From NCBI GenBank assembly GCA_937905825.1, contig CALCXM010000011.1:1-64000 (forward strand): DNA of 64,000 bases. The letters run 5' to 3'. Below, piece after piece: positions 25,485 through 33,075 of the stretch. The notes under the pieces are model-generated. The model searched no databases and had not been told where the DNA came from. It saw only the letters and a list, made by a program, of their open reading frames with translations. The position numbers were made by a program, and so were the translations under genes. The stretch comes from an uncultured bacterium. Lineage in GTDB: Bacteria; Planctomycetota; UBA1135; GCA-002686595. Position 1 is the stretch's first letter. The number at the start of each line of letters is the position of its first letter.

Positions 25485-26849
25485 CTAGTTCCGGAAGCTC
25501 TGGATCGGAGCCGGGATGCGCCCGCCCCGTTCGTGCATGACTTTGCAGCCGAACTTGCCGGGATCCTGGACGATGGCCGTTCCCAGCAAGCCGCCCCATT
25601 CCACGGTTTCGTTCGGACCCTTGCCTGGCACGGGGATGATGCGCACGGCCGTTGTCTTTTGGTTGACCATGCCGATCGCCATCTCGTCGGCGATGATGCC
25701 GGCGATGACGTCTGCACTGGTGTCTCCGGGGACGGCGACCATGTCGAGGCCCACAGAACAAACCGTGGTCATCGCTTCGAGCTTCGCCAAGGACAAGGCT
25801 CCGTCGCGCACGGCTGCAATCATGCCCTCGTCTTCCGACACGGGAATGAACGCACCGGACAAGCCGCCCACGTTGGAGGAAGCCATCACGCCGCCTTTCT
25901 TCACCGCGTCGGTCAAGAGCGCGAGCATCGCGGTCGTTCCCGGAGCGCCCGTGCGGTCCACGCCCATCAGCTCCAAAATGTCGGAGATCGAATCTCCCCG
26001 GGCCGGAGTTGGGGCAAGGCTGATGTCGACGATGCCGAAGCTGGTTTGCAGACGTCTCGCCGCTTCGCGTCCGACGAGTTCGCCCACGCGTGTGATTTTG
26101 AACGCCGTGCGCTTGATGACTTCAGCCACGGACTGCAGATCCGCGCCCGGGCCGAGACGCTCCAGAGCACCGCGCACTACGCCGGGACCGGAGACCCCTA
26201 CGTTCAACACGGTTTCCGGTTCGCCGATGCCCACGTGGGCGCCAGCCACGAAGGGGTTGTCCTCAACCACGTTGGAGAAACACACGAGCTTCGCGCAGCC
26301 CAAGGCACCGGTGTCCGCGGTCAGACGTGCGGTTTCCAAAACGATCTCGGAGAAGCGCCGAACGGCGTTCATGTTGATGCCCGCCTTGGTGCTCGCCAGG
26401 CTAAAGGACGAGCAAACGTGGTCCGTGTTGGCGAGCGCGTTGGGCACCGACTCCAACAGGGCGTGGTCCGCGCGGGTGAAGCCCTTGTGAACGTAGGCGC
26501 TGAAGCCGGCGATGAAGTCCACCCCCACCTCCTTGGCGGCCGCGTCCAGAGCCATCGCTAAGGGCGTCAGATCCTCCGCGCCACTGGGCCCGGCAATCCA
26601 AGCGATAGGAGTCACGGCGATGCGCCGATTGACGATCGGCACCCCGTAGTCCGCTTCGATGGAATCGGCCACCGCGCACAGATTCCTCCCGTGGTGAACG
26701 ATCTTGGTGTAGATCTTCTCGCAGGTGCTTTCCAAGTCCGGGTCGGCGCAGTCCAGAAGGGAGATGCCGAGAGTCGTCGTGCGAATGTCGAGCGTTTCGA
26801 GCTCGACCATGCGCACGGTCTCCAGGATTTCTTGATCGGTGAATGGCAA
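25485..26849 (-). CDS. DUF711 / UPF0210 (PFL-like fold) protein, last gene of the BMC operon
   Basis: The 454-residue protein matches the UPF0210 family, whose known structure has a barrel related to pyruvate formate-lyase but whose function is unknown. Visible blocks are [51 protein letters not shown], and the family-typical glycine-rich region [26 protein letters not shown]. No glycyl-radical RVxG motif is present near the C terminus. The start is a TTG at 26849, 13 bases after the ACT gene stop, with AGGAC upstream; the longer track ORF just reads over the ACT gene in another frame. UPF0237 (ACT) and UPF0210 genes are commonly paired, as here. Its place at the end of a BMC operon is the unusual point. 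Confidence 0.9.
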
Positions 26850-26862
26850 AGTGGGTCCTGAC

Positions 26863-27372
26863 TTAGACGCGGTGCATGTAGCGGAAGACGCGCTCGTGCA
26901 TAACGCGCACGACGTAGTGTTTTTGACGGCCGAGTTCTTCCAAGTCCGCCTTGAGCTGGGTGAACTCGGCGCTGGCTTTGATCTCCACCACGAGTACGAG
27001 GTGGAAGTAGTCCCCAATCGTCTTTTGGGACACGTCGCGGATGCTGGCATCGTGTGCACCGACCGCGGCCGATAGCTCGCCGAGCACGCCCGGGCGGTTC
27101 ACACCAACGGCGGTCACGATCACGCCATCATTGCCGCCCAGGTCCTCCCCCACTGGCTCGGGGCGATCGGATAGGCGCAACAGTTCGTTGTCCACGTCCG
27201 GGCCACGATCGGGGGCTGGCTCCGTGTACGCACCAGCACTAGTCGTGATGGCAACGCCCATGGAACGGGCGACTTCCAGGGCCTGGGGGGTGACGACGGT
27301 GTCCACATCGACGCTGATGGTCGTGCCACTGGCGCGACGCACATCGTCGGCGGTGAGGAAACGGCGGCTCAT
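26863..27372 (-). CDS. ACT-domain (UPF0237) protein with an N-terminal EutQ-N-like segment
   Basis: Residues about 83-169 are a UPF0237-type ACT domain: [20 protein letters not shown], then [19 protein letters not shown] and the family-typical ending [14 protein letters not shown] domains bind small ligands, often amino acids, and regulate enzymes. Residues 1-45 form a separate segment, [12 protein letters not shown]...[19 protein letters not shown], that resembles the N terminus of EutQ and other BMC-linked proteins and is absent from stand-alone UPF0237 proteins of about 90 residues. The start overlaps the stop of the upstream small gene by four bases. With DUF711 13 bases downstream it probably forms a functional pair. 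Confidence 0.85.
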
Positions 27373-27689
27373 CGGTTGTGCTCCTCAGCTGAGTCCGTGC
27401 CAAAAGCGACGGGACCCGATTCGGTAAGGCGATTGACTTGGGCGCGGCCATTCACAACCTGCACGACGTAGGTCCCGTCGGTTTCGAGGATGCGGTGCCA
27501 CAGACAGGGTTTCTTGGTGCTGTTCGATTTTCGCGCGCGTTGTTCGCCCTCCCGCTGAACGGGGATTCCCCGGCGAAAGGCAGCGTCCAACGCGGAGGGC
27601 GTGATGATCGTGAACGCGTCGAGGTACAGCACCTCGTCGGCTCCCATGTCGAGCACATCTTGCTCGCAGATCAATCGCTTGGAGGACAT
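27369..27689 (-). CDS. Small BMC-operon protein with EutQ-N-like segment
   Basis: A 106-residue protein of unknown function. Its first 45 residues (LICEQDVLDMGADEVLYLDAFTIITPSALDAAFRRGIPV) repeat the pattern seen at the N terminus of the adjacent ACT protein: an acidic helix start, a short strand, then ITPSALDAAFRRGI. The second half (CLWHRILETDGTYVVQVVNG) may form a small beta hairpin unit. It overlaps the ACT gene by four bases (ATGA) and follows the BMC-T gene by 24 bases, so it is firmly in the operon. It may help organise the cargo or bind a nucleotide or metal; none of this can be decided from sequence. Confidence 0.75.
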   Translation of the reverse strand: MSSKRLICEQDVLDMGADEVLYLDAFTIITPSALDAAFRRGIPVQREGEQRARKSNSTKKPCLWHRILETDGTYVVQVVNGRAQVNRLTESGPVAFGTDSAEEHNR

Positions 27690-27713: not shown

Positions 27714-28307
27714 TTACAGGAAGCCGACGAGATCCGGGTGGGGACGGGCGATGACCACATCGCGCATGAGTTGTCCCTTCTCCTGGGCGTCCTTGGCTCC
27801 GGCCATCACGGCCGAGCGCACGTCACTCACTTCGCCGGTCAAGGTGAAAAAGCTCTTGCCGCCCAGCCCGTTGGCGATGCGCAACTCAAGCAGATCGACG
27901 GCAGAGGTCTTGAGGGCCACGTCCGCGGCGCTCACGGCGGAAGCCACGGTCGATGTTTGAATCACGCCCAAGGCGTCAAGGCTTCCGTTGATCTTGCCCT
28001 TGCGCCCCAAACCGATCGCGATCTGTTCGTGGGCCTGGGGAATCAGCAAAGAGTCCACGAGGGAGCTGCTGGCCACTTCGACGCCCCGTCGCAGGGCCGA
28101 CTCCAAGGCTTGCACGGAACCCGTGAAGAGCATCACGTACTTGCCCGGCTGCACCGGCTCCGAGAAGAGCATTTTGATGTCCGCTTCCCAAAGGATGGCG
28201 TCGGCCACCTCGATGCCACGGGGCACACAAGTCAGTTCGAGCACGGCGATGGCGGGCTGCAAGTCCGCGCCTTCGGTGAATTGGGGGTTGTGATCGTTTC
28301 GAGTCAT
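27714..28307 (-). CDS. BMC-T shell protein (tandem BMC domains, trimer-forming)
   Basis: The 197-residue protein has two BMC domains in tandem. The first (about 16-95) contains IAVLELTCVPRGIEVADAIL and GKYVMLFTGSVQALESALRRG; the second (about 110-185) contains KTSAVDLLELRIANGLGGKSFFTLTGEVSDVRSAVMAG. Such proteins form pseudohexameric trimers in the facets of microcompartment shells, with a central pore for metabolites or an Fe-S cluster. No pore Cys like that of PduT is obvious in the second domain. The start at 28307 (MTRNDHNPQFTEG) is chosen because earlier codons overlap the BMC-P gene region without homology. It sits between the BMC-P genes and the small EutQ-N-like gene. Confidence 0.9.
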   Translation of the reverse strand: MTRNDHNPQFTEGADLQPAIAVLELTCVPRGIEVADAILWEADIKMLFSEPVQPGKYVMLFTGSVQALESALRRGVEVASSSLVDSLLIPQAHEQIAIGLGRKGKINGSLDALGVIQTSTVASAVSAADVALKTSAVDLLELRIANGLGGKSFFTLTGEVSDVRSAVMAGAKDAQEKGQLMRDVVIARPHPDLVGFL

Positions 28308-28332
28308 CGTTCCTGGGGGGAGCCAATCGCTC

Positions 28333-28668
28333 CTAACGTGGTGTACTGGTTGCGCCCGGGGTTTGGTCGTGGTCCGCGGTCTGTCCGATGCGCCGGCCGT
28401 CCGCAAGGTCCATGGAGTCGACGATGGCCACGATGGCTGTCTGAAAGCCGATGTCGTGTCCCTTGCCGATCGCGTGGCGCGCCGCCCGGCCGTGGACCAC
28501 GAGCACGCGCTCGCCAATCCCGGCGGACACGGTGTCAACCGCGATCATCGTCTCGGCGCTCTTGTCGCCGTCGGTGGTGAAGGGCCGCACGACCATTAGG
28601 CGCAGCCCGCTCAAGGTGGACTCTTTTTGGGTGGCCCAGACGTTGCCGATCACAGTGCAAATGTGCAT
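28333..28668 (-). CDS. BMC-P shell vertex protein (EutN/CcmL family), copy 2
   Basis: BMC-P proteins form pentamers that cap the vertices of microcompartment shells. The 111-residue product begins MHICTVIGNVWATQKESTLSGLRL, the standard EutN/CcmL N terminus, and has the GIGERVLVVHGRAARHA core that lines the pentamer. The start at 28668 shares one base with the stop of the upstream BMC-P gene (TGATG), so translation is coupled. The C-terminal tail DGRRIGQTADHDQTPGATSTPR is longer and more polar than in minimal family members. The 20-residue extension in the track ORF lies inside the neighbouring gene and is rejected. Confidence 0.92.
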   Translation of the reverse strand: MHICTVIGNVWATQKESTLSGLRLMVVRPFTTDGDKSAETMIAVDTVSAGIGERVLVVHGRAARHAIGKGHDIGFQTAIVAIVDSMDLADGRRIGQTADHDQTPGATSTPR

Positions 28669-29018
28669 CAGTTCGTCCCCCCGCTGCTGGCCGAAACGCT
28701 TCCGAGCCGGGGCGTGCTCGAGCGCCAACTGTCGGGCGCGCTCGGAACATCGAAGTCGTCGACGATGCCCACCACCGCGGCTTCGTAGGCGTAGTCGCCG
28801 TCTCCGCCGCAGGCCACGCGCGCCGCCTTGCCGAAGGCCACGATCACGTGCTCGCCAACACCTGCGCCGATCGGATCCGCGGCGACCACGGGCGAGACCT
28901 TGCCATTGGCAGGGTCATCGTTGGCGTCCACCGGTTCGATCACGAGCAAGCGCTTGCCCTCTAGGTCCGCGTTCTTGCGCGTCGCCCAGACCTCACCAAT
29001 CACACGTCCGAGGAACAT
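28668..29018 (-). CDS. BMC-P shell vertex protein (EutN/CcmL family), copy 1
   Basis: A 116-residue paralogue of the adjacent vertex protein. The start MFLGRVIGEVWATRKNADLEGKRL and the core GVGEHVIVAFGKAARVACGG identify the EutN/CcmL fold. Many BMC loci encode several BMC-P paralogues; here two are consecutive. Its start lies one base beyond the stop of the CsoS1D-like BMC-T gene and its stop overlaps the next BMC-P start. The C-terminal Ser-rich tail (SWRSSTPRLGSVSASSGGTN) is not part of the core fold. Confidence 0.92.
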   Translation of the reverse strand: MFLGRVIGEVWATRKNADLEGKRLLVIEPVDANDDPANGKVSPVVAADPIGAGVGEHVIVAFGKAARVACGGDGDYAYEAAVVGIVDDFDVPSAPDSWRSSTPRLGSVSASSGGTN

Positions 29019-29019
29019 G

Positions 29020-29670
29020 CTAGTGATGCTCCTTGGTGTTGGCGCGCCCGGGGATCTCGGCCAGGGTAGCTTCGATCGCAGCCACGGCCTGCTCGATATC
29101 GGCGTCGCTTCCGGCGAGCTGCAAGCGGCCGACAGCGCCGTTGTTTTGCAAATCCACCAAACGCACGCTCGAGGCCTTCTCCGCCTCGTTGGCAGCGATC
29201 AAGGCAAATACTGCGGGAGAGACTTCCAAGGTGTAGAGCGTGTCACCGCCCAAGATCAACATGCCATTGCGCGAACGGTTGATCAGCATCGCCTGGTGAT
29301 CGTCGATGCGCCGGATGATGCGGCTCGTCAGGATCGCAGGCTTCAAGCCTTCCCCGGCACTCGCCCCCATCTCCTTGAGCACCACTTCCCTGGCCATGTG
29401 CACTTGGCTCTGGTCCGGTCCGTGAACCTCCATCGTCCCGTAGGAACGTTCCGTAATCATGGCGCCCGGCCGAACGTCGCAGCTCTTGAGCGCGATGTCG
29501 AGCAAGGAACTCACCACGATTCCCGGACAAACCTCTAGCCACAGAGCGGTCTCTCCGGCGATCGGAAAGTAGCCGTCCGAATTCGACGCGATGGTCGCGG
29601 CGAATTGCGGTTGCAGCTGATCGAGCAACACGACGCCGCGCAGCTCGGAGGTGAGTGGGGTCTGGGCCAA
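29020..29670 (-). CDS. BMC-T shell protein of the CsoS1D/CcmP double-layer type
   Basis: The 216-residue protein matches circularly permuted tandem BMC proteins such as carboxysomal CsoS1D and CcmP. Diagnostic segments are ELRGVVLLDQLQPQFAATIA, CPGIVVSSLLDIALKSCDV, ITERSYGTMEVHG, ILTSRIIRRIDDHQAMLINR and ALIAANEAEKASSVRLVDLQ. In characterised relatives two trimers stack face to face, and the large central pore is gated by conserved side chains, allowing passage of bulky metabolites. The gene lies between the second BMC-H gene (57 bases away) and the BMC-P pair. It is clearly distinct from the other BMC-T in this operon, so the shell has at least two pore types. Confidence 0.9.
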   Translation of the reverse strand: MAQTPLTSELRGVVLLDQLQPQFAATIASNSDGYFPIAGETALWLEVCPGIVVSSLLDIALKSCDVRPGAMITERSYGTMEVHGPDQSQVHMAREVVLKEMGASAGEGLKPAILTSRIIRRIDDHQAMLINRSRNGMLILGGDTLYTLEVSPAVFALIAANEAEKASSVRLVDLQNNGAVGRLQLAGSDADIEQAVAAIEATLAEIPGRANTKEHH

Positions 29671-29727: not shown

Positions 29728-30018
29728 CTAGTTGCCTTCCGGCGCTTTGGGCAGGAATGCTTCCAGTTCGCCAGCGGGGCGCGGGATCACGTGCTGGCTA
29801 AGCAGCTCGCCAACGCGACGCGCGGCGGCACCACCGGCTTCGACGGCGGCTTTGACCGCGCCGACTTCACCACGCACCATGATCGTGACGAGGCCTCCAC
29901 CGGAGATCTCCTTACCGATCAGGGTCACGCGTGCTGCCTTGCACATGGCGTCGGCGGCTTCCACGGCTCCGACGAGACCACGCGTCTCGATCAGGCCCAA
30001 TGCAATGTTGCTAGTCAT
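29728..30018 (-). CDS. BMC-H shell protein, copy 2
   Basis: A 96-residue hexameric shell protein with the canonical opening [29 protein letters not shown] and the pore strand [25 protein letters not shown]. The C terminus [21 protein letters not shown] is typical of PduA/CcmK-like proteins. It shares most of its sequence with the BMC-H at the head of the operon, so the two are recent paralogues or co-assembling partners. It follows the aldehyde dehydrogenase gene by 67 bases. Confidence 0.95.
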
Positions 30019-30085: not shown

Positions 30086-32023
30086 TCAGCCTTCGCAGAC
30101 GCCCGTTTGTACGTTCAAGAGAGAGCAGCCGCGGCAGGGTCCCAAGGGACAAGTCTCGCCTGCATGGCTAAGGATCGTTTCGATGTCCAGCGTGCTGAGC
30201 ACGGGCCGCGGGGCGGCTTTTGGACGCCCGCCAGGACGCGGCGTCTGCGCCGGGCGCGGGCCTTGACCTGGGACGTTCTTCGTGAAGACCGGCGCGCTCT
30301 TGAGGCCCGGCTGCACCTTGGACTGCATCCCGGAGCCGGATGGCTTGGGCGCCTGCGGGATCAGAACCGGTTGCGGAGCCGGGATCGGACGCGTGGGAGC
30401 AGGTTGCGGCGCGCTGCGCTGAATCGGAGGCGCGGGGCTCGGCGCTTGCGCACGCGGGGACCCGCCAAAGGTCGGGTTGCCTTGCCAGTTGCTCGTGGTG
30501 TTGATCGCCGAGCTGATCGACTTGGATCGCAAGCTCGGGGCAAGCGCCGGATCGCCTTCCATGTTGGAACCGCGCGGGGCGAGCTGGCCGCCCATGCTGG
30601 CCGCGAGGGCGTGATCCTTCGCCTCTTGTTCGCGCCAATCGCGACGCACGTAGGCCACGCGCTTGATGTTGAGCAGGTGCCGCGCGGAGATGTTGTCCGA
30701 GCTGATGTTGCCCGCTTGCGGACCGCAGCCCAGGCTCACGGATGGATCCAAGTGGGTGCTGTAACCGACCGCGCCCATGGACGTCGGTCCATTGACGATG
30801 ATGCGGCTCGCGGGCTTCTCCAAGAAGAAGGCGTCCAGGACTTCCTGGTCCTCCGCGTGAATCCCCATGGTGTGGCCCAATCCGCCGTGCTTGAGGGTCT
30901 GCATGCAAATGTCGCAACCCTCCTGCCAACCGTCGACCACGTGCACGGAAAGCACCGGGCACAGGATCTCGATCGTGAGCGGCCAATCCCGCCCGACACC
31001 ACCTTGCGGGCAAAGCAGAACAGTCGTGTGCTCTGGCACATGGAAACCCGCGGCACGCGCGATCTTGTCCGGGTCCTGCCCCACCACTTCGGCGTTCATC
31101 ATGCCGTTGCGGTTGCAGTGGCGTGCGAGCATGGCGGTTTCGCGCTCGTCGCACAAATAGGCACCGCGCTTCAACAGCTCGCCCATCAACTCGTCATAGA
31201 TGGGGCGGTCCGCGACGATGGCCTGTTCCGAACAGCAGAAGGTTGCGTTGTCGAAGCTCTGGCTCGTGACGATGGCGCGCGCCACCTCGCAGGGCTTGGC
31301 GGAACGATCCACGTAGACCGGCACGTTGCCAGGACCGACGCCATAGGCCGGGCGCCCCGAGCTGTAGGCGGCCTTGACCAAGCCCTCCCCGCCGGTGGCC
31401 AAGATGATGGCCGTGTCCTTGCTCTTCATCAGCTCGCCGGTGGACTCCAGGGTCGGCTCCTGCAGGGCGATCACTAGGTCCGGGGGGGCTCCCACCGACT
31501 GAATCGCGCGACGCATGATTTCGACCGTTTGGGCGATGCAACGGATGGCGCGCGGGTGCGGCGAGAGCACGATCGCATTGCGACCCTTCACACTCACCAA
31601 AGCCTTGAAAGCGGCTGTAGACGTGGGATTCGTGGTGGGAACGATTCCAGCGATGATGCCCGAAGGGGTGGCCACTTCCACCAACCCGCGGCCAACGTCG
31701 CGGCGGATCACTCCGACTGTTTTCTCGTCCTTGATCGAGTCCCAAGTCCCCATCGAACCAAACAGGTTCTTGAGGATCTTGTAGTGCACGCGACCGATGC
31801 CCGTCTCGTCCACGGCGAGCCGCGCGAGTTCGTACGCGTTGTCCCGAACCGCGTGGGCCATGGCTTCACAAACGCGGTCGATTTGCGCTTGGGAGTAACG
31901 GCTCACTGCCTTTTGCGCCACCTTGGCCTTGGCCAACGCGCTGCGCACTTCTTGCAGGGACCGCAGATCGGGATCGAGTGTTGCCACGGGGATTCTTCGC
32001 GGAACGGCGGGCTTTCGCCCCAC
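30086..32023 (-). CDS. CoA-acylating aldehyde dehydrogenase with Pro-rich linker and C-terminal Cys-rich encapsulation-like tail
   Basis: Residues about 20-480 are an EutE/PduP-type acylating aldehyde dehydrogenase, which converts an aldehyde and CoA to acyl-CoA with NAD+. Visible motifs are GIIAGIVPTTNPTSTAAFKA, the nucleotide-side ATGGEGLVKAAYSSGRPAYGVGPGN, and the catalytic Cys263 in FDNATFCCSEQ. A long Pro/Ala-rich linker (about 515-605) follows. The tail STLDIETILSHAGETCPLGP begins with an amphipathic helix, as in encapsulation peptides, and ends with four Cys spaced C-x4-C-x2-C-x9-C. The 645-residue length exceeds typical EutE/PduP (about 460). The ORF starts with GTG at 32023; a second GTG at 31987 (VATLDPDLRSLQE) is equally plausible. 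It is the only recognisable enzyme of the classical BMC core here. Confidence 0.92.
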   Translation of the reverse strand: MGRKPAVPRRIPVATLDPDLRSLQEVRSALAKAKVAQKAVSRYSQAQIDRVCEAMAHAVRDNAYELARLAVDETGIGRVHYKILKNLFGSMGTWDSIKDEKTVGVIRRDVGRGLVEVATPSGIIAGIVPTTNPTSTAAFKALVSVKGRNAIVLSPHPRAIRCIAQTVEIMRRAIQSVGAPPDLVIALQEPTLESTGELMKSKDTAIILATGGEGLVKAAYSSGRPAYGVGPGNVPVYVDRSAKPCEVARAIVTSQSFDNATFCCSEQAIVADRPIYDELMGELLKRGAYLCDERETAMLARHCNRNGMMNAEVVGQDPDKIARAAGFHVPEHTTVLLCPQGGVGRDWPLTIEILCPVLSVHVVDGWQEGCDICMQTLKHGGLGHTMGIHAEDQEVLDAFFLEKPASRIIVNGPTSMGAVGYSTHLDPSVSLGCGPQAGNISSDNISARHLLNIKRVAYVRRDWREQEAKDHALAASMGGQLAPRGSNMEGDPALAPSLRSKSISSAINTTSNWQGNPTFGGSPRAQAPSPAPPIQRSAPQPAPTRPIPAPQPVLIPQAPKPSGSGMQSKVQPGLKSAPVFTKNVPGQGPRPAQTPRPGGRPKAAPRPVLSTLDIETILSHAGETCPLGPCRGCSLLNVQTGVCEG

Positions 32024-32060: not shown

Positions 32061-32357
32061 TTACTGCTTGTCTTTGGTCGGCGTCAGCGGCGGCAGAATC
32101 TGCCAGACGCTGTCGTGCGGACGCGGAATCACGTGCACGCTAACCAGTTCGCCAACTCGGCGAGCGGCGGCAGCACCGGCGTCGGTAGCGGCTTTGACAG
32201 CCCCGACTTCCCCGGCAACGAACATGGTGACGAGTCCACCAGTGGCGCGCTCCTTTCCAAAGAGGTCAACCATGGCGGCTTTCACCATGGCGTCAGCAGC
32301 TTCGATCGATCCAACGAGACCTCTTGTCTCGACCATGCCTAGGGCGACAGACTTCAT
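32061..32357 (-). CDS. BMC-H shell protein, copy 1 (first gene of the operon)
   Basis: A 98-residue hexameric shell protein: [29 protein letters not shown] and the pore strand [24 protein letters not shown], then [11 protein letters not shown]. The ATG at 32357 is used; the track's earlier start is a GTG three codons upstream. AGGTG lies about eight bases before the ATG. Being the promoter-proximal gene fits the high dosage needed for the major shell protein. The aldehyde dehydrogenase gene follows within 40 bases. Confidence 0.95.
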
Positions 32358-33075
32358 GGGGAACACCTACTTGGGGTGGGAAAAGTGGGGACGAGTCCCG
32401 CGGGGGTTGAACGGTGTCATGTCGGGGGGTCTCTTGGGGGTCTCTTGCCCCCGAGCGTCCAATCCACAAGGAATGGTGCCCTCCGCGGCGGGGATTCTAG
32501 GCTCGGCACGGGGAAATTGCCACGGACAGGTGGGGTCCCCGACAAAGGTCTATGCCTGCCTGGAAGCTAAGGTCCAGTTGCCCCCCCGACCGGGTGCACT
32601 CGGGAACTGCGTCGCATGAGTGTGGATCCGGAGCGAGAGGAGCTCCACAACCCGCGGAGCCTCCAGGGCTCGGACCCACACCCCGGTTGCGGGAGGGCCT
32701 GGTGACACTCGCGCTTCGCCGAAGATCTGCGAAACGTGCCTCGCCGGCCCCAAACTTTGGACAACCGGCCACCTCCGGGGCTCACCGGGCGAGGAGCCCC
32801 CGGCCCCGCCCACATCGTTGCTACGCAGTTCCACGGGGCACAGATTAGGGGCGTTTCGCTGAGCGGAAGGGCTCGCCGCGCCAGCCTCCGGCCCGTAGAA
32901 ACACCCCTTCCAGCCCCCCTCCCGAGCGAAATCGAACCCCCGGGGACCCCACAGGCAACTCGCGCTAGATCCCGGGAACTCCTGATTAAAAAAGTGTGTC
33001 AAGATGAGGCGTTGACCCTCTCCGGCCCCCCCCTCTGGCCCGGATGATCCCTCTTCTTCACCTAACAATCCAATC
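32358..33075. other. Divergent region upstream of the BMC operon and the metalloprotease gene
   Basis: About 720 bases with only overlapping, low-quality ORFs and no recognisable product. On the BMC side it holds a possible leader hairpin (CTC..GGGGG and CCCCC GAG, 32431-32455) within two direct copies of GGGGGTCTCTT. I see no cobalamin riboswitch and no adjacent regulator gene. Both promoters must be here, but no convincing -35/-10 pair is visible. Confidence 0.4.

Follow-up and report, generated by a model that had tools for sequence, protein, structure and literature searches.

Encapsulation peptides (EPs) are typically amphipathic helices of 15-20 residues that stand at the terminus of a protein after a flexible linker, and as helices they are usually poorly conserved. 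Type I aldehyde dehydrogenases (AldDHs) of bacterial microcompartments (BMCs; IPR013357/TIGR02518) carry such a peptide at their C-terminus (Sutter et al., PMC8217296). For PduP, residues I10 and L14 are required for packing (PMC11157265). Docking in the groove between shell tiles has been shown for Pdu peptides. A C-terminal cysteine motif is known from PduK, in which an Fe-S cluster has been suspected and partly demonstrated (PMC6325248, PMC12058022). Here we describe an AldDH encoded on a 64,000-nucleotide stretch of DNA from an uncultured planctomycete (the window, by which the whole stretch analysed is meant). Its tail is a real, lineage-wide module that joins a C-terminal targeting helix, of a sort already known, to a new, invariant tetracysteine cap, with putative roles in targeting and metal binding.

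The AldDH gene (32023..30086, minus strand) encodes a protein of 645 aa with the C-terminal end ...VLSTLDIETILSHAGETCPLGPCRGCSLLNVQTGVCEG, and in translation the reading frame is uninterrupted up to ...LSTLDIETILSHAGETCPLGPCRGCSLLNVQTGVCEG. The enzyme domain is of type I, EutE-like (CoA-acylating acetaldehyde dehydrogenase-like), has C263 as its catalytic Cys and occupies 30635..32023 (minus strand). The top NCBIfam match is TIGR02518 (531.7 bits, E 1.8e-159, residues 17-467), a score that falls below the equivalog cut-off of 620, and the nearest PDB entry is 5j78, an acetaldehyde dehydrogenase (acetylating), at 1e-145. This sequence match and the BMC shell genes alongside identify the protein as a type I BMC AldDH (IPR013357/TIGR02518-like). 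The C-terminal position of its candidate EP, which the initial annotation had called unusual, is thus a known one for this type of enzyme (PMC8217296).

The operon runs on one strand, the minus strand, starting with a BMC-H shell protein (32061..32366; PF00936) and the AldDH, followed by a second BMC-H (29728..30018; PF00936), a CcmP-like BMC-T (29020..29670; NF053796, 225 bits), two BMC-P proteins (28668..29018 and 28333..28668; both PF03319), a PduT-like BMC-T of uncertain start (27714..28346; TIGR02526), whose pore motif VQPGKY is without the Fe-S Cys, a small 106-aa protein (27369..27689), an ACT-domain protein (26863..27372; PF13740) and a DUF711 protein (25485..26846; PF05167, 596 bits). 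No family match to the 106-aa protein was obtained in Pfam/NCBIfam-type domain searches. Its N-terminal ~42 residues resemble those of the ACT protein (29%, E=0.001), and this shared N-terminus bears a weak resemblance to the end of type I AldDHs from Acidobacteriota (locus L009, E=0.04). DUF711 and ACT are coupled to the BMC operon throughout the window's GTDB family, and a literature search found no paper mentioning DUF711 together with bacterial microcompartments. Possibly the DUF711 protein is an uncharacterised BMC enzyme. The AldDH tail is, in addition, a marker of a BMC type in which DUF711 and ACT are unusual partners.

Reading of the ORF confirmed that the enzyme domain is followed by a linker, a terminal helix and the motif C-x4-C-x2-C-x9-C. 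The linker, ~100 residues rich in Ala, Pro and Ser (30200..30502, minus strand), is predicted to be disordered, with AlphaFold pLDDT values <50 at residues 508-609; its composition across the family is A 22%, P 17%, S 13% and G 10%. Short islands recur in it (window 30200-30550) among 57 full-length proteins, namely W.GN in 36/57 (shuffled 0.1), K[VS]..A.K in 21/57 (shuffled 0.1) and P.F[TS] in 38/57 (shuffled 3.1), and these may be short interaction motifs.

The putative encapsulation helix LSTLDIETILSHAG (30158..30199, minus strand) follows the linker, and AlphaFold predicted its nine-residue helix, 611-619, in the whole protein as well as in the tail modelled alone. The family consensus, derived from the same 57 proteins, is LSxxEIxxI(L/M)xHAG, in which L1, I6 and A13 are kept in at least 90% and positions 9 and 10 are nearly always I, L or M. 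By eye, I6, I9, L/M10 and A13 fit the register I-x2-Phi-Phi-x2-Phi of the N-termini of PduE (AIESMVRDVL) and PduP (LIRNIL) at the E. coli pdu locus. The initial description of an amphipathic helix stands as far as the predicted helix and its conserved register are concerned, but not for the hydrophobic moment, which in the window protein does not significantly exceed that of shuffled sequences (p between 0.07 and 0.57 for different choices of stretch; median p over the family ~0.1). The conserved register I6/I9/M-L10/A13 is better evidence for the predicted helix than the moment is. Compared with a typical EP the helix is shorter, at nine residues, and, with the Cys cap after it, not strictly terminal. 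Its identification as an EP fits the BMC operon and the conserved register, and on sequence and model the helix is probably an EP.

The cap, CPLGPCRGCSLLNVQTGVCEG (30089..30151, minus strand), is a putative metal site in which the four Cys codons lie at 30149-30151, 30134-30136, 30125-30127 and 30095-30097, so that the motif ends two residues ahead of the stop. With a profile of the tail we found only chance-level matches and no counterpart in Pfam, NCBIfam or PDB, and when the tail model, in which AlphaFold confidence in the cap is low (~50-65), was compared with PDB folds, none matched. Matches to GDF15 in the PDB sequence search (E ~0.05) were dismissed as chance. Literature searches for CPLGPC/CPMGPC found no paper, and no description of such a tail came up in those that combined EPs with metals or Cys. 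The cysteine cap is a new element, without a described counterpart on such an enzyme.

Judging by its sequence, the cap probably holds a metal. Since three Cys stand close together and the fourth far off, with Gly and Pro between, [4Fe-4S] would be slightly favoured over Zn, and the spacing appears more like that of [4Fe-4S] sites than of paired zinc knuckles. A His after the third Cys, seen in 53/57 relatives, is missing in the window protein and would thus not be an essential ligand. This missing His, together with the strict conservation of the Cys amid variable surroundings, also suits a metal-free alternative, in which oxidising conditions would turn the four Cys into disulfides or mixed disulfides and so lock the enzyme into the shell. 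We consider this lock quite unlikely: the invariant Gly and Pro around the Cys suggest that the segment folds tightly and in a defined way about a ligand, and no partner Cys is known in the shell proteins.

As the reading we prefer, though at no better than an even chance, the last 37 residues would act as a bipartite targeting tail made of a shell-docking helix and a metal-binding Cys4 cap. The disordered linker would free the AldDH end, and the short helix, with its I-x2-I-[LM]-x2-A register, would dock to the shell, the presumed site being the groove that separates shell tiles. The Cys4 cap would bind its metal, and the metal would fold the 21 C-terminal residues into a compact structure that makes the binding of shell or cargo more stable or contributes to it. 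This reading is favoured by the conserved BMC operon, the precedent of C-terminal EPs, the predicted helix and linker, the conserved hydrophobic positions that match those of the PduP and PduE EPs, the near-invariant cap with its synonymous codon variation, the retention of the Cys in a clade without the helix and the precedent of PduK; against it count the low-confidence model of the cap, the lack of a PDB fold match, the weak amphipathicity, the shortness of the helix and its loss in one clade of the family (G005 and G065).

Conservation was assessed in 81 species of the window's GTDB family. The AldDH was found in 76/81, with largely the same operon neighbours, and the tail profile also matches 76/81; each set contains one genome that the other lacks (G050 and G075), owing to contig breaks or failed matches. 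Conservation of the Cys in homologues, proposed as a check in the initial annotation, was complete, C-x4-C-x2-C-x9-C standing right before the stop in all 76 of 76 readable tails (57 full-length proteins and 19 further tails). Among the 57 proteins, Gly14, Cys17, Pro18, Gly20, Pro21, Cys22, Gly24, Cys25 and Cys35 (numbered in the 37-residue tail) do not vary at all, and in one of the other 19 tails, that of G043, Ser replaces Gly24. The codons do vary synonymously, with both TGC and TGT for Cys and variation in all Gly and Pro codons, and the Cys4 spacing occurs in only 1/8429 other ORFs of the same loci and in none at the C-terminus. An invariant motif with varying codons and a spacing this rare elsewhere reflects selection at the protein level and not chance. 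According to a profile search, the AldDH alone carries the tail in nearly every family genome. At the end of contig C55 of G063 (L148) the AldDH tail and the downstream operon occur once more, and this additional tail hardly differs from the one in G043; a second locus, transfer or contamination are the alternatives.

Conservation also bears on whether the tail is simply an ordinary C-terminal EP, of the sort that is standard for type I AldDHs, with a Cys cap that does no more than stabilise the end or shield it from proteolysis. The cap core (CPLGPCxG), however, has a mean entropy of 0.38 bits compared to 1.2-1.75 bits for the helix, and such conservation above that of the helix is more than one would expect of a plain cap, which leaves the ordinary EP a slim probability.

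Outside the family the cap is absent, with 0 matching genomes among the 73 others of the order and in a sample of the phylum (392). Sister families f3 and f5 have AldDH orthologues of 53-57% identity, also beside BMC-H/BMC-T genes, that end without the Cys4. The G089 orthologue ends in DAVTAALLGKLG..., the G090 orthologue in HGHSHAPGAPHLCAKC...NPSAVIAALLGK..., and the G092 orthologue has no recognisable tail. In the linker of the G090 protein (L154), HGHSHAPGAPHLCAKC is a different possible metal-binding stretch, located ahead of an EP-like end. The distribution of the motif places the probable gain of the cap at the base of the window's family, and the tree, in which this family forms one clade with a support of 100, agrees. 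The initial annotation had looked to homologues with the same operon and no Cys as the case against its reading. There are none in the family, and the Cys-less sister-family orthologues, which lie in shorter BMC operons, date the gain rather than refute it.

Within the family, G005 and G065 group together as a single supported clade, and their AldDHs retain the Cys cap while the helix segment is replaced. Of the BMC-P genes these genomes have only the triplet and not the operon's pair, and no DUF711 was found in them. The loss of the helix goes with the loss of DUF711 and of the BMC-P pair, but as a single event this is no proof of a link. In this clade the protein can do without the helix, which is outlasted by the cap, so that the invariant Cys4 site of a cargo tail has survived where the helix has gone. 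An anchoring of DUF711/ACT by the Cys cap, as had been suggested at the outset from the letters of the locus, draws on the fact that almost every member of the family shares the operon; as G005 and G065 keep the Cys in genomes without DUF711, serving DUF711 is not what the cap is for, and we hold such an anchor to be extremely improbable.

Further BMC parts are scattered over the window's own genome. Contig C120 (L099:3286-5172) encodes a PduS-like protein followed by a PduT with the pore motif TICSGKY, likely an Fe-S pair; C38 (L100:7210-10258) encodes EutL, EutC and EutB, far from the window operon; and C28 (L166:6105-7779) carries a BMC-P triplet and then a class II aldolase. In G005, too, a class II aldolase lies near the BMC-P triplet (L167), and the two arrangements suggest a BMC of aldolase type whose genes are distributed among several loci. 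Across the family, PduS is present in ~20/81 genomes and EutB in ~6/81, and neither explains a tail present in 76, which thus occurs independently of PduS. We therefore rejected PduS/PduT as a general partner of the tail, PduS being too rare, and likewise ethanolamine lyase as a general source of aldehyde, EutB being confined to those ~6 genomes.

The C120 pair nevertheless gives some ground for a function other than targeting, namely that an Fe-S cluster in the cap passes electrons between AldDH and shell, in a relay of the PduS/PduT type, or senses oxygen or the redox state. Three close Cys and a distal one would suit a [4Fe-4S] cluster, and PduK and PduT offer precedents. With PduS in about a quarter of the family, however, an obligate PduS/PduT electron relay is unlikely; moreover, the operon's own PduT-like BMC-T is without the pore Cys and the AldDH uses NAD and CoA, with no need of a cluster, so that a relay or sensor is on the whole doubtful.

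Coming back to the bipartite targeting tail, cargo loading could be metal- or redox-gated if the cap binds a cluster or Zn. In its most far-reaching form, which we think possible but rather doubtful, the tail would be an undescribed cargo-targeting or redox module of an EP helix and an Fe-S tetracysteine knot, with AldDH loading dependent on the redox or oxygen state of the cluster. At 37 residues, the tail is small enough for direct use as a test tag.

Set beside known systems, the tail shares with the C-terminal EPs of type I BMC AldDHs (IPR013357/TIGR02518, dominated by EUT2) the enzyme type, the C-terminal position, the flexible linker and, as predicted, a helix near the terminus. It differs from them in the 21 additional residues with Cys4 after the helix; the word 'cysteine' does not occur in the main text of the catalogue of these EPs (PMC8217296). 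The BMC-P triplet, the class II aldolase nearby and the AldDH in a separate locus are likewise features of the ACI, PVM and FRAG types (PMC8217296), in whose descriptions, as far as the main account goes, there is no mention of DUF711/ACT or of an extra BMC-P pair. The pairing of triplet and aldolase calls to mind the ACI and PVM types in particular, as a resemblance and not as an assignment of BMC type. PduT and GrpU, as pore Fe-S shell proteins, likewise have Cys-bound clusters in BMCs, but there the cluster sits between subunits in the pore and not on a cargo enzyme, and the operon's PduT-like protein is without that Cys. By analogy, the closest precedent for the cap is the tetracysteine extension of PduK, where as here a BMC protein has a long, flexible extension with a Cys4 at its end. 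In PduK the extension sits on a BMC-H shell protein, whereas here the Cys4 is on the AldDH, and the spacings differ, with C-x2-C-x4-C-x10-C in E. coli PduK (L168) and C-x4-C-x2-C-x9-C in the AldDH; we do not claim homology.
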